Both the position numbers and the translations under genes were made by a program. Below the pieces are notes generated by a model. That model did no database searches, was not told the origin of the DNA, and saw nothing but the letters and a program-made list of their open reading frames with translations. From Nocardia arthritidis (GTDB taxonomy: Bacteria > Actinomycetota > Actinomycetes > Mycobacteriales > Mycobacteriaceae), in the NCBI RefSeq assembly GCF_011801145.1, contig NZ_CP046172.1, positions 2,976,001 to 3,040,000 on the forward strand: DNA of 64,000 nt, given 5' to 3'. This document shows positions 16,899-36,981 of this stretch, one piece after another. Numbering within the stretch: position 1 is the first letter of the stretch; every line of letters starts with the position of its first letter.

Positions 16899-17324
16899 CT
16901 ACTCCTCCGGCTGCTCGAATTCGGCTGCCCAGTCGGTATTCTCGGCCGCGACGATGGCCTCGACGCGCTCGGCCAGCAGCGTGCGGCGGTTGCCGCTTCG
17001 ATAGGGGCCGCTGTGCGTCAGGTAGAGGTGCTTCTCCCGTTTGAGCGCCTCGGCGGTCAGGCGGTAGCGCAGCCAGTTGGACTGCCACTGATACAGCTGC
17101 TGCGCCCCCTCCGCGACGACGATCGAGGCCGCGATGATCGCGGTGAGCACGGCGGGCGCGGCGAGGGCCGCGACCGGCACCGCCGCCCCGACCACGATCT
17201 GCCCCAACTTCACCAGCTTGTACATTCGTTGCGCCGCAGCGCTTCTCGCGCTGTACCACTGCAATTGCTCAACAAGCCGTAACCACACCGGGTCGGTCTC
17301 GACGCCCGGTCCAGGTGTCTCCAC
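16899..17324 (-). CDS. DUF4231 two-helix membrane protein (SLATT-like)
   Basis: 141 residues starting GTG. An N-terminal cytoplasmic helix (WLRLVEQLQWYSARSAAAQR) precedes a hairpin of two adjacent membrane helices (IVVGAAVPVAALAAPAV, LTAIIAASIVVAEGA). A conserved helix LRYRLTAEALKREKHLYL and C-terminal LLAERVEAIVAAEN follow. This matches the DUF4231 pattern, related to the SLATT two-TM domains that act as pore-type effectors next to nucleotide-signalling and STAND systems. It diverges, 103 bp away, from the first gene of the conflict island, so it may belong to it. Pore activity here is inference. Confidence 0.72.
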   Translation of the reverse strand: METPGPGVETDPVWLRLVEQLQWYSARSAAAQRMYKLVKLGQIVVGAAVPVAALAAPAVLTAIIAASIVVAEGAQQLYQWQSNWLRYRLTAEALKREKHLYLTHSGPYRSGNRRTLLAERVEAIVAAENTDWAAEFEQPEE

Positions 17325-17427
17325 ACACCACTCATAGCACGGGAATCCGCCGCGCGGGTGCGAAAAACCATCCGGGCACTAGCATTGTTCGTACGACGCG
17401 GCTGAGGGGTGCGGGAGGTGCGTCAGC

Positions 17428-18072
17428 ATGGGTGAGGAGATCGAGGCGGCCGACGGCATGTTGAATATCGCCGCGACTGCGCTCGCGACGAATTCGCTCG
17501 GCCCCGGTCGCCGGGCCGTCGTCTGGGTGCAGGGCTGCCCGTTCAGCTGCCGCGGATGTATTGCGCCGGAATGGATTCCGTTCCGGACGCAGCGGCTGGT
17601 CCGGCCCGGTGAGCTGGCGGCCGAACTGTTGCGCGGACCAGCGTTCGACGGGCTTACGCTCAGCGGTGGTGAGCCGATGGCGCAGGCCGCCGGGCTGGCC
17701 GAGTTGGTGCGGCACGTGCGCGGTGAAAAGGATGTCACCGTCGTCTGTTTCACCGGCTTCACGTTGCGGCGGCTGCGGCGCGACCCGCCACTGCCCGGGG
17801 TTGCGGAGCTGCTTTCGGTGGTCGACGTGCTGATCGACGGCCAGTACGTGGTCGCGCGAAACGACGGGCGCGGGCTGCGCGGCAGCACCAACCAGCGGGT
17901 GCACCGGCTGACCGATCGGCTCCGGGACTGCGGCTACGACTTCGAAAATCGGCCGAGGTCTGCCGAATTGCGAATAGACGAGCGGGCGGTGACGCTGATC
18001 GGTGTCCCGCCGCCCGGACTGTTGGAAACGCTGGACGAGGTGATCGACGGTTTGCCGGGCGGTGCGCGATGA
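17428..18072 (+). CDS. NrdG-like radical SAM 4Fe-4S protein
   Basis: 214 residues; GGGAGGTG precedes ATG 17428. The radical-SAM cluster motif C-x3-C-x2-C is at Cys37, Cys41 and Cys44 (VQGCPFSCRGC), with the SAM-binding GGEP at about residue 80. Size and order match the small NrdG-type activases (Fer4_12), which generate a glycyl radical in a partner, but no anaerobic ribonucleotide reductase gene is nearby. It overlaps the SEFIR gene by ATGA, so the two are cotranslated. A role in modifying a component of the island is an inference. Confidence 0.85.
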   Translation: MGEEIEAADGMLNIAATALATNSLGPGRRAVVWVQGCPFSCRGCIAPEWIPFRTQRLVRPGELAAELLRGPAFDGLTLSGGEPMAQAAGLAELVRHVRGEKDVTVVCFTGFTLRRLRRDPPLPGVAELLSVVDVLIDGQYVVARNDGRGLRGSTNQRVHRLTDRLRDCGYDFENRPRSAELRIDERAVTLIGVPPPGLLETLDEVIDGLPGGAR

Positions 18073-19184
18073 CCGGCGCGGTACGGGTGTTCATCTCATA
18101 CGCCAAGGCGGATCGGGCGCACTCCGACGCGGTACGAAACCTGTGGAACTTCTTGCGGCAGAACGGAATCGACGCCAGGCTCGACCTTCCCGCCGCCGGT
18201 CGACGACAGGATTGGCCGGTCTGGATGCAGCGTGAGATCGAGGCCGCGGATTACGTGCTGGTGGCAGCTTCGGCCGCATATCGAGCCAGCTCCGACCGGC
18301 GGGCCGCGAACGGAGCGGGCCGGGGCGCGAACTACGAGGCCGCACTGCTGCGCGAATTGATCTACGCCGATCGGGAAAAATGGTACGGCCGCATTCTTCC
18401 GGTGCTGCTGCCCGGCGCGACGGCCGACGATATTCCGGTATTCCTCGGCCCGTACTCGGGCAGCAAGTACACGGTGCGGGATTTCACCGTCGCCGGCGCG
18501 GAGAAGCTGCTGCGGGTACTCACTCGGCAACCGGAGGATCCGGAACCGATGATGGCGAAAGGCGTTCCGAAACTGCCACCGCGTTCGAGCGGATTACCCG
18601 GGGCTACCGGAGAATTGGCCGTCGCGTTTCTCGGTGCGAGTCCCTTCGACATCGCGCTCGGCCGGGTGCGCGGCGATCGGGAATTCCAGGCGATTGCCCG
18701 GGTCGCGCGGCGGGGTGGTTTGCGGGTCGCGGCCCGAACATTGAGTACTGCGGGCGATATCGGGAAGCTGCTGGAGGAACGGCCGGATATCGTGCACTGC
18801 TGCGGCGCATTCCGCAGCGCGGACCGCGCGATCCTGCTCGCGGATCCGACCGCGCAGCCGCACGTCATCTCGATCGACGGGCTGGTCCAGCGGATCGGTC
18901 TGGCGAGGGAATATGGGCGGCCGCTACCGCGGGTGATCGTGTTCTCCATCGGTGCGAGTGCGGAATTCGCCACGGATTTCACGGATTTCGCCGAGACCGT
19001 GATCGCGTGGCGCGGTGCGATCGACGCCGACTGCGCTCGTTCCTTCGGTTCCGTGTTCTACGGGGCGCTCGCTCGCGATCCGCACTGCGATATCCGCGGC
19101 GCCGCGCGGTTGGCGGCCCGCGATACGGCGGCAGGTAACGGTTGCGACACTTTTGCCGACCAGATGGTTCTATTGGGTGACTGA
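18069..19184 (+). CDS. SEFIR domain fused to an inactive CHAT-like domain
   Basis: 371 residues. Residues about 5-140 are a SEFIR (TIR-related) domain: VFISYAKADRAHSD, DWPVWMQREIEAADYVLVAAS, then NYEAALLRELIYAD and ILPVLLPG. A Pro-rich linker leads to a CHAT-like (caspase-fold) domain at about 183-345: LAVAFLGASPFD, RPDIVHCCGAF, VIVFSIGAS, IAWRGAIDADCARSFG. In active CHAT proteases the two key motifs read VHFSGHG and NACYS; here the histidine aligns with Ala247 and the cysteine with Gly295, so catalysis is not expected. It likely serves as a binding or scaffold module beside the SEFIR adaptor. Confidence 0.78.
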   Translation: MTGAVRVFISYAKADRAHSDAVRNLWNFLRQNGIDARLDLPAAGRRQDWPVWMQREIEAADYVLVAASAAYRASSDRRAANGAGRGANYEAALLRELIYADREKWYGRILPVLLPGATADDIPVFLGPYSGSKYTVRDFTVAGAEKLLRVLTRQPEDPEPMMAKGVPKLPPRSSGLPGATGELAVAFLGASPFDIALGRVRGDREFQAIARVARRGGLRVAARTLSTAGDIGKLLEERPDIVHCCGAFRSADRAILLADPTAQPHVISIDGLVQRIGLAREYGRPLPRVIVFSIGASAEFATDFTDFAETVIAWRGAIDADCARSFGSVFYGALARDPHCDIRGAARLAARDTAAGNGCDTFADQMVLLGD

Positions 19185-19256
19185 GTCCCGTTCTCTCGCC
19201 GGATAATTCGCGGGAAGTGTAAAAGTCAACCCATCGGAAACCGGGGCGAACTCCCG

Positions 19257-19262
19257 TATACT
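19257..19262 (+). promoter_or_regulatory. Candidate -10 of the seven-gene operon promoter
   Basis: TATACT lies 62 bp before the ATG at 19324, within a 139-bp gap (the only sizeable gap between 17428 and 30923). No strong -35 was found at 17 bp (TCGGAA). The position suggests that the operon can be transcribed apart from the two genes upstream. Confidence 0.5.
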
Positions 19263-19323
19263 CGCGCTGGCAACGAAGCGCGGAATTCGACCGCGCCGAT
19301 CGCCGAAGTGGGGTGGGAGAGCT

Positions 19324-20706
19324 ATGAGTGGCCGTAAGCGAATCTATGTCGCGGAAGCGGATTGGAATAGGTTGCAGGCCGATGCGCGCAAATTGGCGCA
19401 GGTGAACCGAGATCTGCCGAAGCTCGTCGATCAGCTACGCACGCAGACCGAGCGGGACCTCGCGCATTCCATGGCCGAGGTCGAGGCCAGACACGATCGC
19501 TTCGAGACGGCGCTCACCGACTTGAGCGATGCGACCCGGGCGGCCGAGGAGCGCACCGCGCGGCGGCTACGCGACACCTCGTCGGCGATCCTGTCCCGGG
19601 TGCGCGATCAGCATGCCCGCCTGCGCGGTGAAACCGCCGCGGCGCTTCGCAAGGACCGGGAAACCTGGCAGCGCGAACTCGCGGACGAACGGGCAAGGCG
19701 CACCGAACAATTGGCGGAATTGGATCGCAAGGTGACCGCGCTCGCGGACGATCGGTCGCGCGCCGCGCGGCTCACCGAAACCTATCTGAACGACGCAGCG
19801 ATACTGCGCGCCCAAGTGGCCGAGTTGCCGCACGAACGGTACTTGCCCGGCAAATTGGCTGAACTGGATGCGAAACTGCGGTCCTTGCAGGCCGATCGGG
19901 ACGGCGGCGGGTTGGATGCGTTCCTGCTCGCCAACGCGCGGGACTTCTGTCAGGAGATGGGCGCGCTGCGCTCCGAACTCGTGCTGCTCGACACCGAATG
20001 GCGCGCCTGCCGCATCGCGGCGGAGACCGAACTGCTCCGCCTGCAGGGCGTTATCGAAGGCAATGCGACGCTGGACCCGGAAATCATCTTCGAAACGGGC
20101 GAGGCGGTGGCGCGGCCCGATGTCGACTACTGGTCCAGGGGCGCACTGAAAAGGCTTGCCGCAGAAGTGACTACGCTGCTGGCGCAGGTGCGTGACGATG
20201 AGCTGCCGCTGACGACCGATGCGCTGCGGGAGCTACTCGCGAGCCGGGTGCCGGAATTGGACCGGCGGCTCGATTCGGTGGTGGAGCAGGCGGTTACCGG
20301 ATTGCGCTCCTCGCAGCTGCGCGCGAATCTTGCCGACCTCATCGCCGATGCGCTGGACCGCCGCCACCATTATCAGGTGGTCGAGAGCGATGTCGGCTAC
20401 GCGGACGCCGATCAGCGCGGGGCATTTCTGGCCAAGAGCGCCAACCACGTCACCGGCAGCGAGATCGTCATCGAGGTGGCGCCGGGGGAGACCGACGACC
20501 GCCCGCCGACGGTGCGGCTGCACAACTTCGACGGCGACGTCGCCGAGGAGGAGCGGACGGTGCGCACGGTATCGATCCATGACAGCGTCCTGGAACGTAC
20601 GGGCATCGATCTGCGGTCCGCGGAGGAGGCGTCGGAGCCGGATGTTCGGGTGCGGGACGTCGCACAGTTGGTCCGACGGAAGGGCATGGCCACCGAGGCG
20701 GTGTGA
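19324..20706 (+). CDS. Long coiled-coil protein, first gene of the conflict operon
   Basis: 460 residues; GGGAGAGCT precedes the ATG. Residues about 10-160 and 170-230 are strongly charged heptad-rich helices (RTQTERDLAHSMAEVEARHD, RKDRETWQRELADERARR). The C-terminal 120 residues are a small mixed domain (HHYQVVESDVGYADADQRGA, SEIVIEVAPGE, TVSIHDSVLE) with acidic patches. No known enzymatic motif. Coiled-coil subunits of this kind occur in NTPase-based conflict operons as scaffolds. Its stop overlaps the possible GTG start of the AAA gene. Confidence 0.8.
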   Translation: MSGRKRIYVAEADWNRLQADARKLAQVNRDLPKLVDQLRTQTERDLAHSMAEVEARHDRFETALTDLSDATRAAEERTARRLRDTSSAILSRVRDQHARLRGETAAALRKDRETWQRELADERARRTEQLAELDRKVTALADDRSRAARLTETYLNDAAILRAQVAELPHERYLPGKLAELDAKLRSLQADRDGGGLDAFLLANARDFCQEMGALRSELVLLDTEWRACRIAAETELLRLQGVIEGNATLDPEIIFETGEAVARPDVDYWSRGALKRLAAEVTTLLAQVRDDELPLTTDALRELLASRVPELDRRLDSVVEQAVTGLRSSQLRANLADLIADALDRRHHYQVVESDVGYADADQRGAFLAKSANHVTGSEIVIEVAPGETDDRPPTVRLHNFDGDVAEEERTVRTVSIHDSVLERTGIDLRSAEEASEPDVRVRDVAQLVRRKGMATEAV

Positions 20707-20720
20707 ACAGGGGCGAAGCG

Positions 20721-23288
20721 ATGACCGAGTATCCACCGGGGCGACCGGCCGCGCCGATGGCGATGCCCGAGCGGCTGACCGGCGCCACCCGGCCGCTTCC
20801 CGGCGAACCGTTCTGGGTTCTGCACGGCTCCGGTTTGTCCGATCTGCTCGTCGGCGCCGATCTGCGGCCGCGGTCGGTGGAGGAAATGCTTTGGGAAATA
20901 TTGCATTTCGAAGGCTACGAGCGGATCGTCTTCAGCGACTACCGACAGCCGGTGTACTTTCGGGATGCGCGCTCGCGCGGGCTGACCCGCGGCGCCGATC
21001 CACCGCCTTCCGAATCATCTAGGCGGACAAGTCGTTTCGCTGGACCACTCGGCAAAGCGATGCTGTTGGATACCCGGACGGCCGAGCGGGTCGCGCCCGC
21101 ACTGCCGCGCGGCGCCGCCACCGACACCGAGCGGCTGCGGATGCTCGACGGTCTGATGACACAGCCCGCGCCGCGCACCGCCGTGGTGGTGCTCGCGGCC
21201 GAGACCTGGCTGCCCGATATGCCGCCGGAGGTGCAGCGCTCCGCCGCGGAAATGTTCGTCCGGTGGAGCTCGGGCCGGGCGGCGACGCGCAATACCTGTG
21301 TGCTGCTGTTCAATCGAACTGAATTCGCCGGCGTCGTAGAACTGCTGCATCAGCAGAGCTATGCGCCGCAACTGGCTGATCGAATGGCCGAATTGGCGAG
21401 CCGCCCTGTGCCGGTGATCGGCCGGATCGACGACCCGGCCGAGGCCGAACTCGGCAGGCTGGTGCACTACGTTCGACTGCTGAACGGATTGCGCATCGGC
21501 GATTGGGCCGGCCTCGGTCACCTTATGAGAGTGATGGCGGCACAACGGCTTCAGGTCCGGAACTGGTGGCCGGAGTTGGTGTCCTGTGCGGAACGGGATA
21601 TACCGCTGACCGTCGCCGCGCTGGAACGGGACGGGCTGATCAAGGTGGTAGTGCCGGAGAGCCGGGATATCTGGCGCGAACTCGATGGCATGGTCGGGCT
21701 ACGGCCGGTCAAGGAGTTCTTCGTCGCGCATCGCAGCGCGCTGGCGGCCGAGGCGGCGTTGCGAGTGGCCGGACGCGGCACCGGACGCGAACCGGTTTCG
21801 CCACATCTGATCTTCCGTGGCAGTCCCGGAACCGGAAAAACGATGGTGGCCAGGATGATCGGGGAACTCTACCGCGATCTCGGGCTGCTGCGCCGCGGGC
21901 ACCTCGTCGAGGCGAAGGTTTCGGATCTGGTGTCGCCGTATGTCGGTGACACGCCGACCCGAACAGAAGCGGTGGTGCGGCGCGCGCTCGACGGCGTGCT
22001 GTTCATCGACGAGGCCTACCGGTTGAACAGCGACCGCGGTCTGGAAGCGGTGAACGTACTGCTCGCGGATATGGAGAATCTGCGGGACCGGCTGGTCGTC
22101 ATCTTGGCGGGCTATCCGGACCGGATGGCCGACCTGCTCACCTGGAATGAGGGGCTGTCCAGCAGGATCCCGCCCGGCAATCGGGTCGAATTCCCGGATT
22201 TCGAACCGGATGAGCTGCTGACGATTCTGCGTCAGCAGATCGAGGACCGGATCGGGATTCCTTGTGCGCCTGAACTTCTCGAAGAATTGCGGGCGGTCAC
22301 CCGCAATCTGTACCTCACCCGTGACGAGACATTCGGCAACGCACGCACGATGCGCGAACTCGCCGCGGACATCCTGCGGGGTTGGGCGGTGCGGACGCGC
22401 CCGACACCCGGCTGCGATATCGCACCGGCCACGATCGACGACATTCCGCCGCATTACGAGAAATACCGTAAGCACGCCGAATCGCTGGATCTGGTACTCG
22501 CCGAACTGGATCCGATGATCGGCCTGGGCGCGGTCAAGCAGGCCGTGCGCGAACTCGCGCTGGTGCTGCGGCTGCGCCAGCAGCAACCGCACCGCCGCAG
22601 TGAACTCGCCGCGCCGCACATGCTCTTCCTCGGTCCGCCGGGTACCGGCAAAACCACGGTCGCGCGGTTGATGGGCCGGATCTTCGTCGCGCTGGGTCTG
22701 CTGGTCAAGGGGCATGTCGTGAGCGTGACGCGGGCAGATCTGGTTGCCGGCTACGTCGGGCAGACCGCCGAGAAGACGCGGGCCAAGGCGATGGAGGCGC
22801 TCGACGGCGTGCTGTTCGTCGACGAGGCGTACGACCTCGCCGGACGCGGCGCCAACGATTTCGGGTCCGAGGCCATCACCGAACTGGTCGCTCTCATGGA
22901 GAACTATCGCGGCCGATTGTCGGTGATCGCGGCCGGTTACCCGCGGGAGATGATGTTGTTCGAACGAGCCAATTCGGGATTGGCGTCGCGGTTCACCCAC
23001 CGCCTCGAGTTCGCGAATTACACGGTGCCGGAACTGCGCTCGATCTTCGAATACATGGCGCACCACGAACATTTCGAACTCGCCGAGGGGACGCAGGCCA
23101 GGGCGGTGCGCTGGCTGGAGGCGGAGCGCGAGGCCGAGGGCGAATACTTCGGCAACGGCCGGTCGGTGCGGAAATTGCTGGGCCTGGTCGAGACTCGGCT
23201 CGCGGTGCGCATCGGCGGACTGCCGCCGGATCAGCTGGCCGCGCACAGCACGCTGATTCTTCCCGTCGATGTGCCGGAGCCGGAATGA
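20721..23288 (+). CDS. Double CbxX/CfqX-type AAA+ ATPase
   Basis: 855 residues from ATG 20721 (GGGGCGAAG before it; GTG 20703 overlapping the previous stop is an alternative). Residues about 15-300 look like a degenerate P-loop/AAA module without a Walker A. Two CbxX-type AAA+ modules follow: the first with FRGSPGTGKTMVARM and VLFIDEAYRL, the second with FLGPPGTGKTTVARL and VLFVDEAYDLAG, each with an AGYP sensor segment and SSRIPP or LASRFTHRLEF arginine regions. It probably forms a ring or hexamer acting as a remodelling or switch ATPase. It overlaps the vWA-like gene by 4 bp. Confidence 0.88.
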   Translation: MTEYPPGRPAAPMAMPERLTGATRPLPGEPFWVLHGSGLSDLLVGADLRPRSVEEMLWEILHFEGYERIVFSDYRQPVYFRDARSRGLTRGADPPPSESSRRTSRFAGPLGKAMLLDTRTAERVAPALPRGAATDTERLRMLDGLMTQPAPRTAVVVLAAETWLPDMPPEVQRSAAEMFVRWSSGRAATRNTCVLLFNRTEFAGVVELLHQQSYAPQLADRMAELASRPVPVIGRIDDPAEAELGRLVHYVRLLNGLRIGDWAGLGHLMRVMAAQRLQVRNWWPELVSCAERDIPLTVAALERDGLIKVVVPESRDIWRELDGMVGLRPVKEFFVAHRSALAAEAALRVAGRGTGREPVSPHLIFRGSPGTGKTMVARMIGELYRDLGLLRRGHLVEAKVSDLVSPYVGDTPTRTEAVVRRALDGVLFIDEAYRLNSDRGLEAVNVLLADMENLRDRLVVILAGYPDRMADLLTWNEGLSSRIPPGNRVEFPDFEPDELLTILRQQIEDRIGIPCAPELLEELRAVTRNLYLTRDETFGNARTMRELAADILRGWAVRTRPTPGCDIAPATIDDIPPHYEKYRKHAESLDLVLAELDPMIGLGAVKQAVRELALVLRLRQQQPHRRSELAAPHMLFLGPPGTGKTTVARLMGRIFVALGLLVKGHVVSVTRADLVAGYVGQTAEKTRAKAMEALDGVLFVDEAYDLAGRGANDFGSEAITELVALMENYRGRLSVIAAGYPREMMLFERANSGLASRFTHRLEFANYTVPELRSIFEYMAHHEHFELAEGTQARAVRWLEAEREAEGEYFGNGRSVRKLLGLVETRLAVRIGGLPPDQLAAHSTLILPVDVPEPE

Positions 23289-25198
23289 CCTCGACCGTCA
23301 TGACCTGTCCGGTATGTCTCGGCGCGATCGGCGACGAGGCGGCCTGCGCACGGTGCGGGTGGGTGCTGTCCGCCGGACCGTGGCTCGGCCCGATCGGCGA
23401 CGCGGTGCGCGACCGGTTCGATCGGGAAATCGCAACGGTGGCACGGCGTTACGACCTGTCGGCGGTCGCGCGGGCAGGAGTGCTCGGTGTCGCGGATGAG
23501 TTGGTCGCCGAAATGTGTGCGCTGGTGCGTGGCGGCGAAGCCGCCGAGGACGAGCTGGCCGCGGTGCGGGTCGGGGTCGAAGTCCCTGCGCGGCAGTCGG
23601 TTTGGGAGGCATCGGTGCGGGCGCTGGTGTGGGTGAGCATGGAACCGTTGCGGCGCACGCTGGTTCTGATCGATATCGGATACGAGGACGTCCGGGTGCT
23701 CGAGTTGTCCATCGATCCGTTGGGTGCGCCCGTGACCGATGGTCCGCCGCACCGGATTCAGTGGGGGTCGCTGTTGACCGAGCGGCCCGAGTCGGATGCG
23801 GCGGCGATGCTGCTGCTGGCGGGCGGTATCGGGGAAGGCTATCCGCCCGGATACGGCATCGACGCCGCCGCATGCGCCCGGCTCCTGCCGACGGCATCCG
23901 GTTCTCATTCCAAAGTGCAAGTACTGCACCATCTTTCGGGATGGGCGATGCCGGACCGGATCGCCGCCCGGTTCGCTCCGACCGTTGCATGGGTGCATGG
24001 GCCGGTCGATGACCGGTTCGCCGCCGCCGGGGTGCGTGGGCGGCAGCTCGATGACCGGGTCGCGGTCGCCGAGGTGCACGGGCCGCGGCTCGACGAACGG
24101 TTCGCCGGGGTGCTCGCCGCGCAAATGCCGCTACTGACCCAGCACGGGCTCGTCGTCGTCGAGGTCGATGCGGCCGGGAATACCCGTCCACGGGTGCATC
24201 CGCTGTTCCGGGCGGGGGCCACCGCGGCATCCACGCGAGTCGCCTCGGCGGACATCGCTGTTCCGGGCGATGCGAGCGAACTCGTGCTCGCCGTTGTCGC
24301 CGGCGCCGTGGACACCCCGCCGCACCGGTGCACACCGATCGTCGTTGCCACCTGCCCGATGCCCGACGAGCCCACCGCCACACTGGAATTCATGCTAGGC
24401 GGGCCGGGCGAGGTGATCATCTCCAGACCACAAGGGAGCCGCACCGACTCGGTCGCGCTGTCCGGCTGGCCCGCCGTACTCGATGAGATCCCACCGGTCC
24501 ACCGGCCGTTGCGACACGCATTGGATCTGGTCTTCGCCATCGAATTGGGTGGTACCGAAACAGCTTTGGCGCACCGCCGGAAGCTGATCACCGCGACGAT
24601 CGATCTGCTCGCCGATCGGCGCCCCGGTCAGGGCGCGGTGCGGGTCGCGCTCATCGGCTATGCCGACCACGTGGGACACGGCAGGCAGCGAGTGCTGCGG
24701 ATACATAACTTCGAAGCGCTCGACACCGCCCGGAGGGCCGCCGAAAACCTCAGCGCCACACCGCTGATCGAGCCATGGGCGGCCCCGCTGGAGGACGCCC
24801 TCGCGGCCGCGGCCCGGCTGGCCTGGCGGTCGTCGCCGGTCGAGCGGCGCATGGTGATCGTCGGCAGCCGTCCACCGCACCTGCCGACCCACGACGACGC
24901 GGCGCGCTGCCCCAACGGCCACGACTGGCGCGAACAACTGAAACGCGGAAAGGATTCGGGTGTGCGATATCTCGCGGTCTGGGATCCGCCGGCCGGGATG
25001 GATGCCGATAGCGCGACCACCAGGCGAGCCATCAAGGTGTGGCAGCAGCTCAGCGCGCCGCACCGGACGATTCGACTCAGCGGCGCCGTCGCCGAATTCG
25101 TCGCCATCCGCGCCGATCTACTAGGGCGAGTGGAACGCACCGCGCCCCTGCGATTTCCGATTGTGCCCGGGCGAACAGATCAGGAGAACATTCGATGA
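23285..25198 (+). CDS. Zinc-ribbon / vWA-like protein
   Basis: 637 residues starting ATG in an ATGA overlap. An N-terminal zinc ribbon (C8-V-C11, C21-R-C24) is followed by about 380 residues of beta-rich sequence without a known family. A C-terminal von Willebrand A-like fold starts near residue 405 (ALDLVFAIELGGTETALAHR, VRVALIGYADHVG, PLEDALAAAARLAWR, RRMVIVGSRPP). The metal-site DxSxS of vWA is replaced by ELGGT, so the MIDAS looks degenerate. In related operons, vWA proteins pair with an AAA ATPase, as the coupled upstream gene suggests. Confidence 0.72.
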   Translation: MTSTVMTCPVCLGAIGDEAACARCGWVLSAGPWLGPIGDAVRDRFDREIATVARRYDLSAVARAGVLGVADELVAEMCALVRGGEAAEDELAAVRVGVEVPARQSVWEASVRALVWVSMEPLRRTLVLIDIGYEDVRVLELSIDPLGAPVTDGPPHRIQWGSLLTERPESDAAAMLLLAGGIGEGYPPGYGIDAAACARLLPTASGSHSKVQVLHHLSGWAMPDRIAARFAPTVAWVHGPVDDRFAAAGVRGRQLDDRVAVAEVHGPRLDERFAGVLAAQMPLLTQHGLVVVEVDAAGNTRPRVHPLFRAGATAASTRVASADIAVPGDASELVLAVVAGAVDTPPHRCTPIVVATCPMPDEPTATLEFMLGGPGEVIISRPQGSRTDSVALSGWPAVLDEIPPVHRPLRHALDLVFAIELGGTETALAHRRKLITATIDLLADRRPGQGAVRVALIGYADHVGHGRQRVLRIHNFEALDTARRAAENLSATPLIEPWAAPLEDALAAAARLAWRSSPVERRMVIVGSRPPHLPTHDDAARCPNGHDWREQLKRGKDSGVRYLAVWDPPAGMDADSATTRRAIKVWQQLSAPHRTIRLSGAVAEFVAIRADLLGRVERTAPLRFPIVPGRTDQENIR

Positions 25199-29994: not shown

Positions 29995-30923
29995 CCGATG
30001 ACCCATGTGCCGCGATTCGCGCGATCGTCGGCAACGGCACGGATCCCCTTGCGGCGCTTCGGGTGCTGCGGCACGCCATCATATGGTCGGCGGCCACCGT
30101 CGCCGCGGCGCTCTCCGGATCCGGCGATGAGCCGGGAACCGACGATGCCGCACTGGAATTGGTGATCGCCGTCGACGACGCCGTGGCCGAGGCCGACCTG
30201 CTCGTCGACGTGGTCCCGAGACTCGCGGACCACGCGCTGGCCGGGGTCCGGGTCACCGAATATCTGCGGCGCCAGATCGACGCGCTGGTAAGTCTTTCCG
30301 ACCAGGTCGCCGCCGCCGGGCATGAGTATGAGGCGGTGCGCGATGTGGAGGCCGAGCTGATAGCCAGTGGCGCCGAACACGATCGGCTCACCGCCCGGCT
30401 CGCGGAGCTGACCCGGCTGCGCGAACTCGCCGACTCGCTGCCCGAACTGCGGGACATGCATGATGAGCTCACCCGGCGGGAGTCGGCGATGCTGGCCGAG
30501 ACCGACGCGGCCGAAGCGGCCCTGCTCGCCACCGCCGAACGGGTCGGCGCGCTGAGCGCCGAACGGCTTTCGCGGCTCGGGACCAGCACCGCCGAAGCGC
30601 TTACCCGACTGCGCGACACCGAATCGCGTTGGGCGGCGGTGGCCGCACAGTTCGCCGACGCCGAGCGCAAGGTAACCAAGCTGCGCGACGAATACCTGGT
30701 GCTGTCCGCCGCTTTGCGAGCGCATGCCGAGGTCGACGCCGATCTGACCGCCAGGCTCGACGGCGCTGAGCGCGGCTCGGTAACCGACCGGGTCCGCACC
30801 GTGCTGGCCGACGTCCAGTCGCTGCTGGATCAGGTAGACACCGCACTCGGCGATACGCTCGCCCGCTACGACCGGATCAATGCCGAGGCCCATCGGGAAC
30901 TGCACTGGCGGGAGGATTCCTGA
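29991..30923 (+). CDS. Coiled-coil protein, last gene of the conflict operon
   Basis: 310 residues, ATGA-overlapping the Hsp70-like gene. After an N-terminal globular part (about 1-95), almost the whole remainder is heptad-repeat helix (DVEAELIASGAEHDRLTARL, SLPELRDMHDELTRRE, VRTVLADVQSLLDQVDTAL). No transmembrane segment or enzyme motif. Its last 47 bp overlap, tail to tail, the end of the oppositely transcribed NB-ARC/TPR gene. Confidence 0.78.
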   Translation: MTDDPCAAIRAIVGNGTDPLAALRVLRHAIIWSAATVAAALSGSGDEPGTDDAALELVIAVDDAVAEADLLVDVVPRLADHALAGVRVTEYLRRQIDALVSLSDQVAAAGHEYEAVRDVEAELIASGAEHDRLTARLAELTRLRELADSLPELRDMHDELTRRESAMLAETDAAEAALLATAERVGALSAERLSRLGTSTAEALTRLRDTESRWAAVAAQFADAERKVTKLRDEYLVLSAALRAHAEVDADLTARLDGAERGSVTDRVRTVLADVQSLLDQVDTALGDTLARYDRINAEAHRELHWREDS

Positions 30924-33900
30924 GTTCCGCCGCAATGATTTCGGCGTCCGCACGGCAGCGCGAATGGTCGGCGCCGCCCGTCCGTCGGTAGATCGCGACG
31001 GCGATCGCGATCTGCCCGTATGCCGCGGCGAGGAATCCGAGATCGCGCAACGCCAGCGCATAGCGGTGTCGAATCGCGGCCCGGTCGATATCCGAAACAT
31101 TCGGATGGACAAGCAATTTCGCCATATCCCTGCGCAGGGTACGGGCGTCGCGCCGACCGGTTGTCGATGGGCGGCCGATCGCTGGGTACGGCAGTCGATT
31201 TGTCGGCTCGATCAGGGGATTGTTTTCGCCCGCAATTGCTTTCGAGTTCGAATCGGTCGCGGTCGGCCGCGCTTCGAGTAGATCGGCGGGCCGCGGATCC
31301 GCCGAGGAGTCAGGTGCATCGCCGCACGTCACAAGCGCATTCGACTCGGCCGATGTCGAATCCGATTCCCTCGTACCAGGTTCCGGAACCGGCTCGGCCG
31401 AGACGGGCCGGTCGCCATCGCCGCGCAGGTAGGCGGACCACGGATCATCCACGGAATCAGGCAGATCGACAGCCGGGCCGCTAGGGGATACCGGAGACGC
31501 ATCCTCGGATTCGAGGTCGATGACAGGCGGCGTGGCGGGTTCTGCGGCGTTCAACTCCTGCGCGATCACGCTCAGCCCCCGGCGGATTCGGGCCGCGAGA
31601 GGACCGTCGCGGTCCTCGGGTGCGAGCTCGGCGAGGGCGAGTTGCAATTCCCGTTCCGCGTCCGCGTAGTTGCCGCACTCGTGCGACAACTCGCCGAGAT
31701 CCATATGCGCGGCGGCCGAATCGACTCCCGTATCGCCTAATTCGGCGAGTCGCGCGGCGACGGAGGTGAGCAGTTCCAGTGCCTCGGCATGCCTGCCGCC
31801 CTGCGCGCGGATCGCATCGCAGAGTGCCCAGCGCACCACCTCGATGTCGTGCTCGGAGTCGGATAGTGAGCGCAGCGTGGACAGCACCTCACGTAGCTCC
31901 CGCTCGGCCTCGGCGGGCCGGCCAAGCGTCAAGTGGATCAGCGCGAGCATGACCTGAGCGGGCAATGGCCGTGCCGCGTCGCCGTCGAATCGCAGCGAGT
32001 CGATGAGCGAGATCAGGTCGCGCTCTGCATCCAGGAAGCGTCGCTGCTCACACAGCACTTGAACCAGCGTCGAGCGCAGCGACCAAATGGTCTCGTGATC
32101 CCTGCCGTACAGGCGTCCCTGGACATCAATCGTGTCCCGCAGCAGCTGCTCGCATTCGGCGAGATCGCCGTTGCGCCGCGTGATGTGCGCGAGCGCCGAG
32201 CGGGCGTACACGGTCTGCGGATGATCGGTGCCGAGCGCTGCGATCTGATCGCGCAGCAGTGCGCGCAGCATCGCCTCGGCCCGCGGATTGTCCCGATCGG
32301 ATTCGATGATCAATTGGGCGTAGACCAGACGGTTGTTCAACACCATCAGATCGTTCGGCCCGAAGAGCCGGGTCTGCCGTTCGATCAGCTCCTCGATCGC
32401 CCCGGCACCGCCGACGGGATCGTAGCGAAAATGCCTGAAGGCCGCGCTCATCCGGATGTTGACCACGGCGCTGCTGTTCTCGCCGACGGATTTCGCCATC
32501 GCGTCGGCGATGGCGAGCACCCGTTGTTCGTCGCCGACCGGATCCTCGTCGGCGAGGTCAGCGCCTCTGGTGTTGATCAGGGCCGCCAACCCGAGCAGCG
32601 CCATCGGATGTTCCGGATTCAGCGCGTCGCGCTGAATCCGGAGCAGTTCGCTCAGCTGAATCTCGGCGCCGCCGGTATCGTTCAGCAGCCGCAGTATCGC
32701 GAGCAGCGCCATGCGGGTGGCGAGGGTGTGCGGACTGTCCGGTCCGTACCGCCGCTCCTGCACCCGCAGCACCGCACGCAGCTCGTCGCGCGCCTCGCCC
32801 AGCCTGCCCTGCCCCGCCGTGACCTCGGCGAGCACCGCACGGATGACCAGCACCGCCGGATGGTCGCGGTCCTGGTCGACCTCGGCGAGCCGGGCGTCCA
32901 GTGCTAGGCCCAATTCCCTTGCGGCCTCATCATATCGACCGGTCGTATTGAGCAGGCGGCCGTAGCCGAGGTGCGTTTCGGTCGCCGCCTCGGCGCAGAT
33001 GCCGCGGGCATGATCGTCGAGCAGCTCGCGGTACATGGACTCGGCCTCCGCCGTGCCACTGGTCGCCAGGGCCTGCGCAAGTTGCAGTCGAACGCCTATC
33101 AGCAGTTTGTCGTCGGGTGGTAACAACGCGCGGGCATCGGCAAGCAGGGTGCGCAGTTCGCTGCACACCACGGTGGCATTGCCCTCGGCCCCGTTCACCA
33201 CCGCGGCGCCGAGCCGGGATTCCAGGTGGACGCGGATATGGTCGACATCGTGCCCGAGCGCGAGTGCGGCCGACCGAAGCAGGGCGAGTTCGATCAGCGT
33301 GTGCGCATCGCGCAGCGCGCCGTCCACGAATAGATAGCCGGCACACGTGCTTGCCGCGTCGACCGCGCGGGCGAGTGTGTCGGCGGATTCGTCCGGCAGG
33401 CGCTCCAGCACGCCGCGATGCAGCGACGGCAGCGTCGACCAGCGTCGTTCACCATCGGATGGCTTTGTCACCGAAGTGAATTCGGCGAGCAGACCGACCG
33501 CGGTGGTCCACACGGCCGCGCGGTCTGGACCGCTGTCCCTGCTCGCCGCGACGACCTCGGCGAGCAACGGATGCAATGCGACGCAATCGCCGTGCGCGGT
33601 ATCGTCCTCGGTTGCCGCCAACTGATCCAGCAGCGCGTGGGTTCGCATATTCCGGACGATCTGATCCAGGGCGGTCTGAGTGAGATCCGCGGCGGGCGGG
33701 CCGAGCGGGGCCAGCGGCGCACCGGCGACGAGCAGCCCGAGATCGATCGGATGCGGCGAGCCGTAACACGAAAGCAGTTGCAGCAGTTGGCGAGCGGCCG
33801 GCATACCGTGTTCGGCCAGCAGGCGCAGCGTCAGCTCCCAGGTCAGGCGGACGGAGCGGCGAGCGTCCGCCTCGTCGTCCGGGTCGGCCGGTGTCGGCTC

Positions 33901-34749
33901 GCCGGCATCGAGCAGTGCCAGATCGTCGCGGACCGCGGCGCCGTATGCGGCGAAGGTGCGGTATCTGGCGAGCGGATCGCAGAGATAGCCCCCCGCCAGG
34001 CGCAGGGCGAGCGGCAGTCCGCCCAACTGTGCCGAGAGCAGCGCCGCATCCGTCGGATCACCGGCGTTCGGGGCCCGCTCCAGCAAAAGTGCGGCGCCGT
34101 CGGCGTTTTCGAGCGGGTTCACCCGGTGCAGCCGCGCCGCGTCGCCCCACGGATGCTGGTCGCCGCGCCGCGTGGTCACCAGCACCAGACCGGCCCGGCC
34201 GGGCCGGATCCAACCGGTTCCGTCGTAGTGGTCGGCCGATGCGCCCAGCAGTTGACCGCGGCGCAGATCGTCGACATTGTCGAAGACGAGCAGCCAGCGC
34301 CGGTCCGCGGATTCGAGGCCGCGCCAGACCAATTCGCGCACCTGGCCGTAATCCGACTGTGCGGCACGCAGTTCGCGCGGTGGGACGCCGCATGCCGCGG
34401 CCACCGCGAGCATCGACCGCGCCACCTCGGCGCCGCGGACCCAGTACACATCGATGCCTTGATCCCTGGCTTGCACCGCGAGCCACAGCGCGAGCGAACT
34501 CTTTCCGCCGCCGGCGATTCCGTGCAGCACGATGATCGGCGCGCCGTCTTGTCCGAGCGCCGCGTTGAGCGTCCGTTTGAGGGTGTCGCGGCCGTGCAGG
34601 ACGGGTGGTGTCAGGCCGAAGGGCGGCTCGGTAGTCGGTTGTCCAGCCGATGCCGGACCGTTCGCGAAGGCATCGGCGAGACCGCCCGCGGCGGTGTAAT
34701 AGTCGAACAACCCGGGGCGGGCGGGCGCCACGGCACCCTCGTCGGTCAT
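30877..34749 (-). CDS. NB-ARC/STAND NTPase with TPR array
   Basis: 1290 residues from the ATG at 34749 (GGGGGATTCGG before it; an ATG at 34824 with GAGGCGG is possible, adding 25 residues). The NB-ARC P-loop is VLHGIAGGGKSSLALWL, with Walker B WLLVFDNVDDL, VLVTTRRGDQ and GGLPLAL helices. From about residue 400 to 1050 a TPR superhelix follows (DHARGICAEAATETHLGYGR, ERRYGPDSPHTLATRMALL, RDHETIWSLRSTLVQVL repeats). A disordered acidic/Pro tail leads to a last TPR-like helix pair. STAND proteins are switch sensors that oligomerise when the repeat domain binds a trigger. No effector domain is fused. Confidence 0.85.
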   Translation of the reverse strand: MTDEGAVAPARPGLFDYYTAAGGLADAFANGPASAGQPTTEPPFGLTPPVLHGRDTLKRTLNAALGQDGAPIIVLHGIAGGGKSSLALWLAVQARDQGIDVYWVRGAEVARSMLAVAAACGVPPRELRAAQSDYGQVRELVWRGLESADRRWLLVFDNVDDLRRGQLLGASADHYDGTGWIRPGRAGLVLVTTRRGDQHPWGDAARLHRVNPLENADGAALLLERAPNAGDPTDAALLSAQLGGLPLALRLAGGYLCDPLARYRTFAAYGAAVRDDLALLDAGEPTPADPDDEADARRSVRLTWELTLRLLAEHGMPAARQLLQLLSCYGSPHPIDLGLLVAGAPLAPLGPPAADLTQTALDQIVRNMRTHALLDQLAATEDDTAHGDCVALHPLLAEVVAASRDSGPDRAAVWTTAVGLLAEFTSVTKPSDGERRWSTLPSLHRGVLERLPDESADTLARAVDAASTCAGYLFVDGALRDAHTLIELALLRSAALALGHDVDHIRVHLESRLGAAVVNGAEGNATVVCSELRTLLADARALLPPDDKLLIGVRLQLAQALATSGTAEAESMYRELLDDHARGICAEAATETHLGYGRLLNTTGRYDEAARELGLALDARLAEVDQDRDHPAVLVIRAVLAEVTAGQGRLGEARDELRAVLRVQERRYGPDSPHTLATRMALLAILRLLNDTGGAEIQLSELLRIQRDALNPEHPMALLGLAALINTRGADLADEDPVGDEQRVLAIADAMAKSVGENSSAVVNIRMSAAFRHFRYDPVGGAGAIEELIERQTRLFGPNDLMVLNNRLVYAQLIIESDRDNPRAEAMLRALLRDQIAALGTDHPQTVYARSALAHITRRNGDLAECEQLLRDTIDVQGRLYGRDHETIWSLRSTLVQVLCEQRRFLDAERDLISLIDSLRFDGDAARPLPAQVMLALIHLTLGRPAEAERELREVLSTLRSLSDSEHDIEVVRWALCDAIRAQGGRHAEALELLTSVAARLAELGDTGVDSAAAHMDLGELSHECGNYADAERELQLALAELAPEDRDGPLAARIRRGLSVIAQELNAAEPATPPVIDLESEDASPVSPSGPAVDLPDSVDDPWSAYLRGDGDRPVSAEPVPEPGTRESDSTSAESNALVTCGDAPDSSADPRPADLLEARPTATDSNSKAIAGENNPLIEPTNRLPYPAIGRPSTTGRRDARTLRRDMAKLLVHPNVSDIDRAAIRHRYALALRDLGFLAAAYGQIAIAVAIYRRTGGADHSRCRADAEIIAAELRNPPASAVPDGPRH

Positions 34750-34999
34750 CCGAATCCCCCAATCGGTTGAGCGGCCGCGAATCGGCGATCGATTCGTCCG
34801 CTGTATTTCCTTGGACGACATCATGATTGTCCGCCTCGATCCGCCGAAAGATACCGGATCGGCGCGGTTCGGGCGTCGCTGAAACGGTGTATCCTGCTGA
34901 TGTAGCGGGGAGTTCGTTCGAGATCTATTGGTGCTCGGCTATTTTCGGGGGCTATCCGCTGCGGCCTACTCCGCGACGTTATGAAAAATACTGTTTTAC

Positions 35000-35644
35000 A
35001 TGTCGAATGTGCTGCATTGCCGACAGTCGTCCGATTGCCGCGATCCACTGTGCCGAGATAGCGCGCGAATTACTCGGAGCGCAACGAACGGTCACGGCGG
35101 TCCACCGCCACCACGCGTGGTATTCGATATCGATTCCGCTGTCGTACCGGTCGGTGCGACGGTGACGGTTGGTTGGTCCGCCGATGAGCCACACCGGGTT
35201 CGGGTCATCGCGCCCGACGGCCAGCGGGCCGACACCGGGAGTTACGTCTGGGCTGGGCAGCACCAGATCGTCGTGCGACGGCCTGGTGTGCTTCGCGCCG
35301 AGGCGTATGCACCGACCGGTCGGATTACCTGCGCGTGTACCCGAATCGTGGTGTACGACAACGCTCCCGAGCGATTGCGTCCCCGGATCGGCCGGGCCGA
35401 TGGGCCATCGACGACGATCGCGCGGTTGCCGGGTCTGACCGAACTCGCCGCGACCGAGACCGCGCCGCGGCCGCTGATGCCCGCCATCCATCCGCTGCCG
35501 GAATGGGCGAGTCCGCCACGCTTTTGGCGAATCTTGTTGTCCGGCAAACTCTTCACACCGGCATTCCGTCCGGCGGGGCGCTGCTGGCCGGAATCCGACC
35601 GCGCGTTCACCGACTTCATCGGAAAAGGCAGGGGGACACGATGA
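35000..35644 (+). CDS. Beta-sandwich-like protein upstream of DUF4407 gene
   Basis: 214 residues; the start is uncertain, as no ribosome site is seen before ATG 35000. The core (about 40-120: VVFDIDSAVVPVGATVTVGW, VRVIAPDGQRADTGSYVW, QIVVRRPGVLRAEAYAP) has the strand pattern of an Ig-like or beta-sandwich domain. The N-terminus holds several Cys. It is coupled by ATGA to the DUF4407 gene. No recognised family. Confidence 0.55.
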   Translation: MSNVLHCRQSSDCRDPLCRDSARITRSATNGHGGPPPPRVVFDIDSAVVPVGATVTVGWSADEPHRVRVIAPDGQRADTGSYVWAGQHQIVVRRPGVLRAEAYAPTGRITCACTRIVVYDNAPERLRPRIGRADGPSTTIARLPGLTELAATETAPRPLMPAIHPLPEWASPPRFWRILLSGKLFTPAFRPAGRCWPESDRAFTDFIGKGRGTR

Positions 35645-36981
35645 TCCGGCGTTGGCTGGTCGGGCTGATCGGAGTACGCGCGGAGTTGCTGCGCGAAACC
35701 CCGGGCGACACGTTCCGCTACATCGCGATGGCAGGGGTGCTTTTGACCACCGCCGCGATAGCCGCTGTCTCTGCGACTTTCGCTCTGCAAATGGCGGTGC
35801 ACGTGGCGTTGCCATGGGCGATATTGCTTGGAATTGCCTGGGGCATAGTCATTCTCAATCTCGACCGGCTGCTGGTCATCAGCATGACCAGGCACAGCGG
35901 CTGGAAGGCGAATCTGCTGGCCGCGGTGCCGCGGCTGGCGCTGGCCATCCTGCTAGGCGTGGTGATCTCGACGCCGCTGGTGCTGCGGATCTTCGAGCCC
36001 GAGATCAATACCGAGATCCAGGTGCTCAACAGCGCGAAGAAGGCGGACTTCGAGAAGCATCTCGACGGGGTGCAGCGCTACAACGAGATTCCCGGCCTGG
36101 AACAGGAGTTGGCGAAGCAGAACGCCGTCGCGGCAAAGGATCCGAATGCGGTCGAGCAGAACCCGGCGGTCGTCGACCAGCAGAAGCGCGTGGACGCGGC
36201 GCGTGCCGCGCACGATAAGGCGTTTGCCGACGCCTACGGTGAGATAGTCGGCACTTCGGGCACGCACGTGCCCGGTGTCGCCGAGGCGGCGCGCGAGGCG
36301 CAAGCGAAGGAGCAGCACGCCAAAGCGGAATTGGATCAGGCCGAGGCCGATCTCGCGGCGGTCAAGGCCGACGCCAAGAACGCGGCGCAGACGGATTCGG
36401 CGAATGCCAAAGCGGCCGCCGACCGGATCCAGCACGATATCGACCAGCGGAATTCCGAAAAGAACAGGGAGATCCAGGAGTTCTCTGCCTCGGTGAGCAA
36501 CGATGACGGCCTGCTCGCCCGGTTGGAAGCGCTGAACGCGCTCAGCGACCAGCGCCCGGACCTCGGCACCGCACAGATGGCCCTGTTCCTGCTGTTCCTC
36601 TCCATCGAGGTCCTGCCGGTCTTCGTCAAACTGCTGCACCTGTTCGGCCCGCTCACCGAATACGAAAAGCTCAGTGCCAGAACCGAAGCGGCCGCGGAAC
36701 GGGAAGCGGCGAAGTCGATGGCCCGCCGCGAGAACACCAATGATTTCCTGGAGAACCTGCGCATGGATCTCGAACAGGACCAGGCGCAACGGCAATTCGA
36801 CGCGGGCGTGCAGGCGAACAAACTACTGGTCGATGAGCAATTGGCGATCGCTGAGCAGGAGATCCGCCGCTGGAGCGCCCGGGAATCGGAGCGCCGCAAT
36901 TACCGTGCGCCACGGAGTTTCGATCCGCCGCCGGAATCGCCGATACCCGGCCGGGACGGAAGCACCTTCCGTCCCAATTGA
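35641..36981 (+). CDS. DUF4407 membrane protein with central coiled coil
   Basis: 446 residues from ATG 35641. Two N-terminal membrane helices (MAGVLLTTAAIAAVSATFAL, VALPWAILLGIAWGIVIL), the family segment NLDRLLVISM, a third helix (LALAILLGVVISTPLVLRIF), a long Lys/Ala/Glu coiled coil (about 120-285), then a fourth helix (ALFLLFLSIEVLPVFVKLL) and a charged tail. This is the DUF4407 layout, of unknown role. The stop lies 2 bp from the stop of the SEDS gene on the other strand. Confidence 0.85.
   Translation: MIRRWLVGLIGVRAELLRETPGDTFRYIAMAGVLLTTAAIAAVSATFALQMAVHVALPWAILLGIAWGIVILNLDRLLVISMTRHSGWKANLLAAVPRLALAILLGVVISTPLVLRIFEPEINTEIQVLNSAKKADFEKHLDGVQRYNEIPGLEQELAKQNAVAAKDPNAVEQNPAVVDQQKRVDAARAAHDKAFADAYGEIVGTSGTHVPGVAEAAREAQAKEQHAKAELDQAEADLAAVKADAKNAAQTDSANAKAAADRIQHDIDQRNSEKNREIQEFSASVSNDDGLLARLEALNALSDQRPDLGTAQMALFLLFLSIEVLPVFVKLLHLFGPLTEYEKLSARTEAAAEREAAKSMARRENTNDFLENLRMDLEQDQAQRQFDAGVQANKLLVDEQLAIAEQEIRRWSARESERRNYRAPRSFDPPPESPIPGRDGSTFRPN

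Follow-up and report, generated by a model that had tools for sequence, protein, structure and literature searches.

The closest published relatives of the locus described here are the DO-GTPase/GAP1 conflict systems, in particular the GAP1-N2 type with Hsp70 (Kaur et al., 2020, PMC7159879). As outlined in that paper's passages on GTPase-centric systems, these have in common with our locus a DO-GTPase homologue, a GAP1-like gene directly downstream, an Hsp70-type member, a membrane-associated part, conflict-type neighbours and actinobacterial hosts. The same passages describe MoxR-vWA ternary systems, in which an AAA ATPase is likewise coupled within an operon and radical SAM genes occur in a subset, including the FtsH type. 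In the open-licence PMC literature, DO-GTPase/GAP1 systems are represented by this 2020 eLife paper and by one about phage shock proteins, which mentions them once. Our locus lies in a stretch of 64,000 nucleotides of Nocardia arthritidis (assembly GCF_011801145.1, contig NZ_CP046172.1, positions 2,976,001 to 3,040,000), hereafter the window, as a plus-strand run at 17428-30923 that encodes a radical SAM enzyme, a SEFIR protein, a coiled-coil protein (CC1), a double AAA+ ATPase (AAA2), a protein with a plausible zinc ribbon (E), a GTPase, a GAP1-like protein, an Hsp70-like protein and a second coiled-coil protein (CC2). Because this gene order recurs in distant actinobacteria and parts of it recur in cyanobacteria and a member of the Chloroflexota, often near immune-type genes, the cluster is probably a defence machine not yet described, and not a product of chance. 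An earlier, sequence-only reading had taken it for a single island, a view that the comparative evidence corrects: the system consists of two separable modules.

Unlike the GTPase-centric systems as presented in PMC7159879, the GTPase and GAP1 families of the window fall below Pfam cut-offs, the zinc ribbon is placed on a different protein, and an extra radical SAM-CC1-double CbxX AAA module and a DUF4407 protein are added. Among the window proteins scanned, no Pfam match was obtained to the FNIII repeat of GAP1-N2 or to the GASH of GAP1-N1, and no GrpE, the partner in the Hsp70 theme, accompanies the Hsp70-like protein; since these features were not found, the locus was not filed as a member of the described type. 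The words CbxX, SpoVK, SEFIR, CHAT, NB-ARC and NrdG are absent from the main text of that paper. In contrast to the MoxR-vWA systems as set out there, AAA2 is of the CbxX/SpoVK type and not of the MoxR type (bpMoxR, 13.3 bits against a cut-off of 27; best families SpoVK, EccA and CbbX), and E lacks support for a vWA domain. With CbbX, SpoVK and EccA themselves AAA2 shares its family and its two AAA domains; unlike them, it is double, has an N-terminal region of its own and misses the equivalog cut-offs. Among open-licence PMC papers, neither the radical SAM-CC1-double CbxX AAA module nor DUF4407 as a conflict component was found in print, CbxX/SpoVK did not appear together with defence among the papers listed, and no literature connected DUF4407 or DUF2997/DUF1257 with such systems. 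On the best reading, the system is a variation on the 2020 kind with a radical SAM-AAA plug-in, and would work like a member of that kind.

The run is compact. The radical SAM gene (17428-18072) overlaps the SEFIR gene (18069-19184) by 4 bp, and a gap of 139 bp separates the latter from the seven tightly coupled genes from CC1 to CC2, which occupy 19324-30923. CC1 (19324-20706) overlaps AAA2 (20703-23288) by 4 bp when AAA2 is started at the GTG at 20703; with the alternative ATG at 20721, AAA2 begins 14 bp past the stop. Overlaps of 4 bp join AAA2 to E (23285-25198), E to the GTPase (25195-26253, the gene finder's own choice of start being 25231), the GTPase to the GAP1-like gene (26250-28781) and the Hsp70-like gene (28768-29994) to CC2 (29991-30923), the last gene of the operon, and one of 14 bp joins the GAP1-like to the Hsp70-like gene. 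All junctions of the run are of -4 to -14 bp, except for the gap before CC1 and the alternative start of AAA2. The sequence-only reading, which had described seven overlapping coupled genes headed by radical SAM and SEFIR genes, is borne out in its open reading frames, their positions and their junctions, including the alternative AAA2 start. Its family labels held for radical SAM, SEFIR, double AAA, DUF4231, TPR and DUF4407, all above Pfam cut-offs, but not for NB-ARC, to which there was no Pfam match. A DUF4231/SLATT gene flanks the run upstream on the opposite strand; downstream, a convergent STAND-type/TPR gene overlaps CC2 by 47 bp and is followed by a small open reading frame and a DUF4407 gene.

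For the comparison of loci, genes were called with a codon-usage script and then searched with a profile of each component; the gene finder, whose training genes were rich in GC, can overlook genes where GC is low, as in L023, most of whose genes it missed and which was recovered by six-frame reading. E, the GTPase and the GAP1-like gene stand in a row in sixteen actinobacterial loci, namely the window, G833, G315, G096, G289, S. albidoflavus L022, G228, G130, G114, G354, G355, G357, G131, G158, G904 and the Streptomyces plasmid L181, with E cut by the locus end in L022 and broken in G357. Seven of these (G354, G355, G357, G833, G131, G158 and G904) were found by the E profile alone and are not rows of it. 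The radical SAM, CC1 and AAA2 genes are also present in six of the sixteen (the window, G833, G315, G096, G289 and L022). Streptomyces albidoflavus NRRL B-1271 is a laboratory strain with the cassette. In a seventeenth locus, G028, the GTPase and GAP1-like genes lie next to an nSTAND1-WD40 gene without E. Across the 17 loci (for L181, five proteins were searched), DUF4407 is found in eleven (the window, G833, G315, G096, G289, G228, G130, G114, G354, G355 and G357), which makes it a recurrent part of the system and not, as first supposed, mere surroundings. The Hsp70-like profile matched ten of the 17, with a short remnant in G228 and a weak match (37 bits) in L022.

The closest locus, G833, belongs to another family of the same order and has the same gene order as the window, with protein identities of 64% for the radical SAM enzyme, 40% for the second half of the SEFIR protein (189 aa), 50% for CC1, 55% for AAA2, 35% for E, 52% for the GTPase, 29% for the GAP1-like protein, 33% for the Hsp70-like protein, 48% for CC2, 42% for the STAND-type/TPR protein (1162 aa) and 47% for DUF4407. 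Because the same order is found in other families, the locus is not a chance cluster; a unique assembly of this kind is ruled out by synteny. The gene-neighbourhood check proposed at the outset thus returned the same order in G833 and a contiguous E-GTPase-GAP1-like row in sixteen loci; the genes are neither scattered in relatives nor assigned to housekeeping families, AAA2 missing the SpoVK, EccA and CbbX cut-offs. As to SEFIR and SLATT, neither the SEFIR domain nor a SLATT gene was found in G833, and SLATT had no match in the other profiled loci or by tblastn in 15 loci; SLATT is therefore seen in the window only, and of the SEFIR protein the second half alone is kept in G833. Since the TPR gene, DUF4407 and this second half are present in the G833 order, they travel with the cassette in this branch.

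The system is patchily distributed. Among 8000 scored candidates of a search of 5.8 billion proteins, the GAP1-like protein had one relative besides itself, and it was present in two of 60 related genomes, one of which is its own; for the AAA2 N-terminal region, with 8000 candidates scored as well, there were 14 other relatives, whose sources include Nocardia, Lentzea, Goodfellowiella, Saccharopolyspora, Saccharothrix and Actinomadura. E was found in 7/296 genomes of the class, and its profile matched 5/396 of a phylum sample and 4/397 of an order sample, the own genome being counted in all three, as well as 9/35 genomes of family f32; these are possible undercounts, since for each genome of the class, phylum and order samples 3-4 candidates received a score, against 34 in f32. 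Two of the phylum-sample and one of the order-sample matches are weak, and the weak loci G623 (28 bits) and G865 (21 bits) have no other system gene. At E-values up to 1e-15, the CC1 profile matched four of 335 class genomes (the window's, G096, G289 and G315), in all of which the radical SAM, AAA2, E, GTPase and GAP1-like genes lie beside CC1; this search is partly circular, as the four genomes supplied profile rows, and shows that there is no further CC1 in the 335. A contig scan with the AAA2 profile, with 80 loci among the matches listed, yielded L022, L023 and L036 as useful, and among the other loci listed, with genes called by the finder that is less sensitive at low GC, weak GTPase scores were seen in L079 and L084 only.

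In trees of the GTPase and of the GAP1-like N-terminus, the window and G833 are sisters (support 100/100 and 100/97, respectively), and the loci with radical SAM, CC1 and AAA2 do not form one clade, well-supported branches forcing at least three changes on the GTPase tree and at least four on the GAP1-like tree. For instance, G315, which has the module, is the sister of G357, a draft genome without it in the 34 kb read. Because the carriers are not one clade, the radical SAM-CC1-AAA2 module must have been gained or lost more than once. The whole region is also additional DNA with respect to congeners. In the window, 28.4 kb separate the gene at 9815-10159 from the one at 38555-39532; of ten same-genus loci fetched after a search of 59 genomes, eight have both flanking genes in the same orientation and 1.4-6.3 kb apart, the other two have no match to the first flanking gene, and none of the ten has a match to any of 12 island proteins. 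The extra DNA at this variable site comprises the island together with a TerD-AIM24 gene and an FtsW-family gene, and is most simply explained by insertion. These two genes, at 11040-12572 and 36984-38399, fall within the same 28-kb extra stretch.

To begin with the proteins of the core module, the GTPase profile matches by hhalign the canonical DO-GTPases (12 rows) over 241 columns with an E-value of 6.4e-20 and a probability of 99.2%; the P-loop GKTT and the T/AKxD motif are each found in 10/10 rows, the window protein having the G4 motif TKFD. Pfam DO-GTPase2 stays below its cut-off on the window protein (17.9 against 27 bits) and matches 9/10 rows at E-values up to 1, the best being 2.2e-4. 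On these profile comparisons, the GTPase is a divergent relative of the DO-GTPases. The GAP1 half of the GTPase-GAP1 pair announced by the sequence-only reading is a more distant match: GAP1-M touches 3/11 rows (best E-value 0.013), the window protein not among them, and the profile of its N-terminal part, which is conserved over some 300 residues, scores 39.1 against canonical GAP1 by hhalign, with a null maximum of 20.6 and none of 60 column shuffles as high. The place of the gene directly downstream of the GTPase fits the GAP1 layout, and the protein is a probable distant relative of GAP1. In two long GAP1-like proteins (L017 4976-8476 and L020 12064-15759), a piece of this N-terminal part is repeated near residue 800 (BLAST E-values 0.008 and 0.005, respectively). 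In addition, several cassettes are adjoined by another GTPase-GAP1-like pair or by a GAP1-like gene on its own (L017 1149-4561, L018 329-2512, L020 17864-19900), and four sampled extra GAP1-like rows form one clade on the GAP1-like tree.

The E protein has a conserved C-terminal domain with no assigned type and, at its N-terminus, four cysteines that are invariant in alignment A6; with a DZR match in 4/17 relatives, a zinc ribbon at this place is plausible. The zinc-ribbon part of the original zinc-ribbon/vWA label therefore stands, but the vWA part is unsupported, Pfam VWA matching 0/17 relatives and the hhalign score against VWA_2 proteins (16.5) lying inside the null, as 4/60 shuffles are as high. 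By eye, the motif order is vWA-like, with E-L-G-G replacing DxSxS. A canonical VWA_2 protein, recognised by Pfam in four and by BLAST in eight, is found near eight relative cassettes (L131 6149-7627, L022 6356-7864 and six more), and G833 has a VWA_2 gene added after CC2; a VWA_2 search of the own genome, run without a positive control, gave no match. The Hsp70-like product is an Hsp70/actin-like ATPase-type protein by profile relation to the Hsp70s of Calothrix and Tychonema, to which it scores 48.9 and 69.8 bits; one relative matches FGGY_C just below the cut-off, and nucleotide-binding motifs are visible by eye. A search of PDB sequences was rejected as evidence for Hsp70, since the window protein alone gave one meaningless match (E-value 0.67) and an actinobacterial-only profile gave none, and the DnaK matches came from a profile that included the two cyanobacterial Hsp70s and are not independent of them. 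Taken alone, the GAP1-like and Hsp70-like window proteins have no Pfam match, and their labels are supported through relatives.

The plug-in module is headed by an NrdG-like radical SAM enzyme with the cysteine motif CPFSCRGC and a Fer4_12 match of 109 bits, above the Pfam cut-off; it misses the NCBIfam cut-off for NrdG (88.1 against 126.1 bits). In alignment A5, which spans three phyla, CC1 begins with MSGxK in 8/9 rows, and its first eight columns have a conservation of 0.74 against an average of 0.53. The start was considered as the best conserved stretch and rejected, as another eight-column stretch reaches 0.83, and for this reason the idea of CC1 as a modified substrate is on weak ground. 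AAA2, a CbxX-type protein with an N-terminal region of about 330 residues, has an AAA domain matched in two stretches and AAA_lid_6, above the Pfam cut-off; it scores 337.1 of 459.25 bits for CbbX, 343.8 of 466.65 for EccA and 404.9 of 422.95 for SpoVK against the NCBIfam equivalog cut-offs, and it matches the sequences of the solved CbbX (E-value 4.5e-43) and EccA1. The SEFIR gene carries, at residues 6-127 or thereabouts, SEFIR (34 bits) and TIR_2 (43.3 bits) matches above the Pfam cut-off, and a PADLOC bSEFIR match of 83.8 bits that covers model positions 39-197 of 412. Its second half resembles by eye a CHAT domain that lacks the His and Cys normally present, a putative pseudo-CHAT in which Pfam CHAT found no match; the G833 counterpart has, by eye, His and Cys at those places.

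Beyond the actinobacteria, a mobilizable Calothrix plasmid carries genes for Hsp70, a P-loop TPR protein, the radical SAM enzyme, CC1, AAA2 and a coiled-coil protein with a zinc ribbon, together with three genes of GTPase type, and this copy adjoins ParA/ParB. Searched with the window GTPase profile, two of the GTPase-type genes give weak matches (17.5 and 15.2 bits) and the other gives none, but it is related to homologues of the first two. The TPR protein has a weak profile match to the STAND-type/TPR protein (26 bits). Tychonema L023 has AAA2, an Hsp70-like and a radical SAM gene, with no CC1 match in the stretch examined, and the Anaerolineaceae metagenome-assembled genome L036 has the radical SAM-CC1-AAA2 module, with no E or GTPase match in 22 kb. 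Moreover, Geminocystis and Anabaena plasmids carry relatives of the Calothrix GTPases next to a radical SAM gene or Hsp70, surrounded in Geminocystis by genes for toxin-antitoxin systems, for a dGTP triphosphohydrolase and for a dCTP deaminase that is annotated as anti-phage, and in Anabaena by CHAT and dynamin-family genes. GTPase-centric systems are described, in the passages of PMC7159879 concerned, as nearly wholly absent from cyanobacteria. In the cyanobacterial plasmid loci L188 8298-14963 and L189 11100-17184, small GTPases are accompanied by a repeated partner protein that belongs to a common family, next to radical SAM or Hsp70 and in defence-type surroundings (dCTP deaminase; CHAT, dynamins).

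We give about an even chance to the reading that the locus is an NTP-dependent conflict operon built from two modules, most likely anti-phage or for kin discrimination. In this operon, the membrane-associated DUF4407 protein, the zinc-ribbon E, the DO-type GTPase with its GAP1-like partner and the Hsp70-like ATPase would form a core that sets a switch or threshold, gated by nucleotides, close to the membrane. In the plug-in, the radical SAM enzyme may modify CC1 or another AAA2 partner, and AAA2 would remodel that partner using ATP. A trigger, sensed by the STAND-type/TPR protein here and by other STAND or kinase-repeat proteins in relatives, would shift the switch, upon which effectors (SEFIR/pseudo-CHAT and SLATT here, CHAT in relatives) would act on the cell. 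The conserved gene order, the modular build, the lack of the region at this site in congeners and the family relations given above are shown by the data. We infer the trigger, the direction of signalling, the radical SAM substrate, the action of the effectors and defence itself, like every functional step, from the named families. The conflict-operon reading is supported by the order shared with G833, the contiguous rows of the sixteen loci, the Calothrix plasmid, the module carriers that are not one clade, the congeners without the region and the plasmid radical SAM relatives close to AAA genes. The defence hypothesis of the sequence-only reading gains from conflict-type neighbours in several relatives (CHAT, STAND/TPR, nSTAND1-WD40, kinase-WD40 and GmrSD), and phage defence as such stays at the level of that inference. 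Several observations weigh on the other side. PADLOC run on ten island proteins returned the partial-model bSEFIR match and, for AAA2, generic AAA models such as IetA (46.9 bits); the L036 module is surrounded by ordinary genes; the neighbour survey by Pfam left out the G315, G096 and G289 cassettes; and most related loci do not include SEFIR and SLATT. No Hsp70-like gene was detected in 7/17 loci (G096, G357, G131, G158, G904, G028 and the five L181 proteins), the hhalign probability for GAP1, 2% with a first, smaller alignment and 27% with a larger one, speaks of weak homology, and no phenotype is known for the cassette. The GTPase has one distant match on 72,556 plasmids and none on phages, so that the core module is mostly chromosomal.

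A possible, if doubtful, variant is that radical SAM, CC1 and the double CbxX AAA protein form an immune machine of their own that spans the Actinomycetota, Chloroflexota and Cyanobacteriota and may predate the actinobacterial operon. In this machine, the radical SAM enzyme would modify CC1 or another AAA2 client, the AAA ring would tell licensed from unlicensed complexes and fire effectors, and the GTPase/GAP1/Hsp70 switch would have joined more than once. In a wider form of this variant, an NrdG-like radical SAM enzyme with an AAA protein would be a general plasmid-borne conflict theme. Ten loci were hand-picked from 99 plasmid records with a radical SAM match (Calothrix, Geminocystis, Photobacterium, Paenarthrobacter twice, Polaromonas, Moellerella, Rhodococcus, Paenibacillus and Leisingera), and nine of them have an AAA ATPase gene at most four genes away, the exception being Geminocystis, whose nearest AAA gene is about 9 kb off. 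As the loci were hand-picked, and as an AAA gene had led to the choice of two of them (Calothrix through its own, Photobacterium through one listed with the match), this proximity is a lead and not a rate. These neighbourhoods resemble the window in having a related radical SAM gene near an AAA ATPase, but the partner genes differ; CC1 had no match among the annotated proteins tested in L180 and L182, and on the plasmid collection E had none and the Calothrix CC1 matched itself only. The radical SAM query hit 1,871 phage records, and the genes annotated among the ten matches listed are anaerobic nucleotide reductase genes. Two layouts recur on the plasmids, AAA domain-PIN-hypothetical-AAA-radical SAM in Proteobacteria (four loci) and AAA-hypothetical or DUF1257-DUF2997-radical SAM in Gram-positives (four loci), both with NrdG-like '4Fe-4S single cluster' radical SAM genes (L180, L182, L190-L195).

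Other explanations dispense with host defence. The locus might be a developmental or stress regulator of filamentous actinobacteria, whose chaperone-type NTPases build or dismantle membrane or cytoskeletal structure (DUF4407, coiled coils) with no enemy involved. Hsp70, AAA and GTPase proteins are also housekeeping-type machines, the TerD-AIM24 and FtsW-family genes lie in the immediate neighbourhood, and plasmids give no E match and one GTPase match, all of which suits a regulator; such a role is nevertheless unlikely in view of the patchy spread of E over the class, phylum and order samples, of the congeners that lack the region at the same site, and of the cyanobacterial relatives on plasmids and in defence islands, with their varied conflict-type neighbours. 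A system of competition between elements, or of addiction, that was captured on the chromosome from a plasmid or other element would agree with the Calothrix copy on a mobilizable plasmid adjoining ParA/ParB, with the relatives of the radical SAM gene that lie close to AAA genes on plasmids (of the ten examined, one is mobilizable and three are conjugative) and with modules that come and go. The complete actinobacterial cassette, however, was found on no plasmid of the collection, and we hold this origin to be distinctly improbable.

The AAA2 matches to EccA (343.8 bits) and to the solved EccA1 and CbbX raise a further explanation, in which an EccA/CbbX-like AAA protein and a radical SAM maturase would mature a protein that is secreted or displayed on the surface and is related to type VII secretion. 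It counts in favour of this explanation that peptide maturation is a frequent task of radical SAM enzymes. Against it, AAA2 scores below the curated cut-offs and is a double AAA protein with an N-terminal region of its own, and in the scanned window proteins Pfam recognised neither a component of type VII secretion nor a precursor peptide; we regard this explanation as very improbable. If the two-module conflict operon is the right reading, the parts list of bacterial NTP-gated immunity would gain a radical SAM enzyme along with an AAA machine of the CbxX type, such systems would be built of interchangeable modules that cross phyla, and the orphan NrdG-like plasmid enzymes would be given a testable substrate question. 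The CHAT, SEFIR and STAND-type partners, in turn, link the system to bacterial relatives of animal and plant cell-death signalling.

Of the remaining genes around the run, the DUF4231/SLATT gene and the STAND-type/TPR gene are accessory. The upstream gene on the minus strand (16899-17324) encodes a SLATT-like membrane protein with DUF4231 (80.9 bits) and SLATT_1 (30.2 bits) matches, both above the cut-off. The convergent gene on the minus strand (30877-34824) encodes a P-loop NTPase with TPR repeats (TPR_12, 79.7 bits, above the cut-off), which misses the NCBIfam cut-off for FxSxx_TPR (214.3 against 300 bits); as its P-loop region matches AAA_22, NACHT and nSTAND models, all below cut-off, and has no Pfam NB-ARC match, it was named STAND-type/TPR. 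On the plus strand, the DUF4407 gene (35641-36981; 242 bits, above the cut-off) has hydrophobic segments predicted from hydropathy and is coupled to the small open reading frame at 35117-35644, for which a gene of similar size, without tblastn similarity, is found at the same place in G833. Finally, of the six cassettes with DUF4407 and no radical SAM module, four have a protein kinase-WD40 gene next to them (L018 13886-15940, with homologues in G355, G114 and G354).

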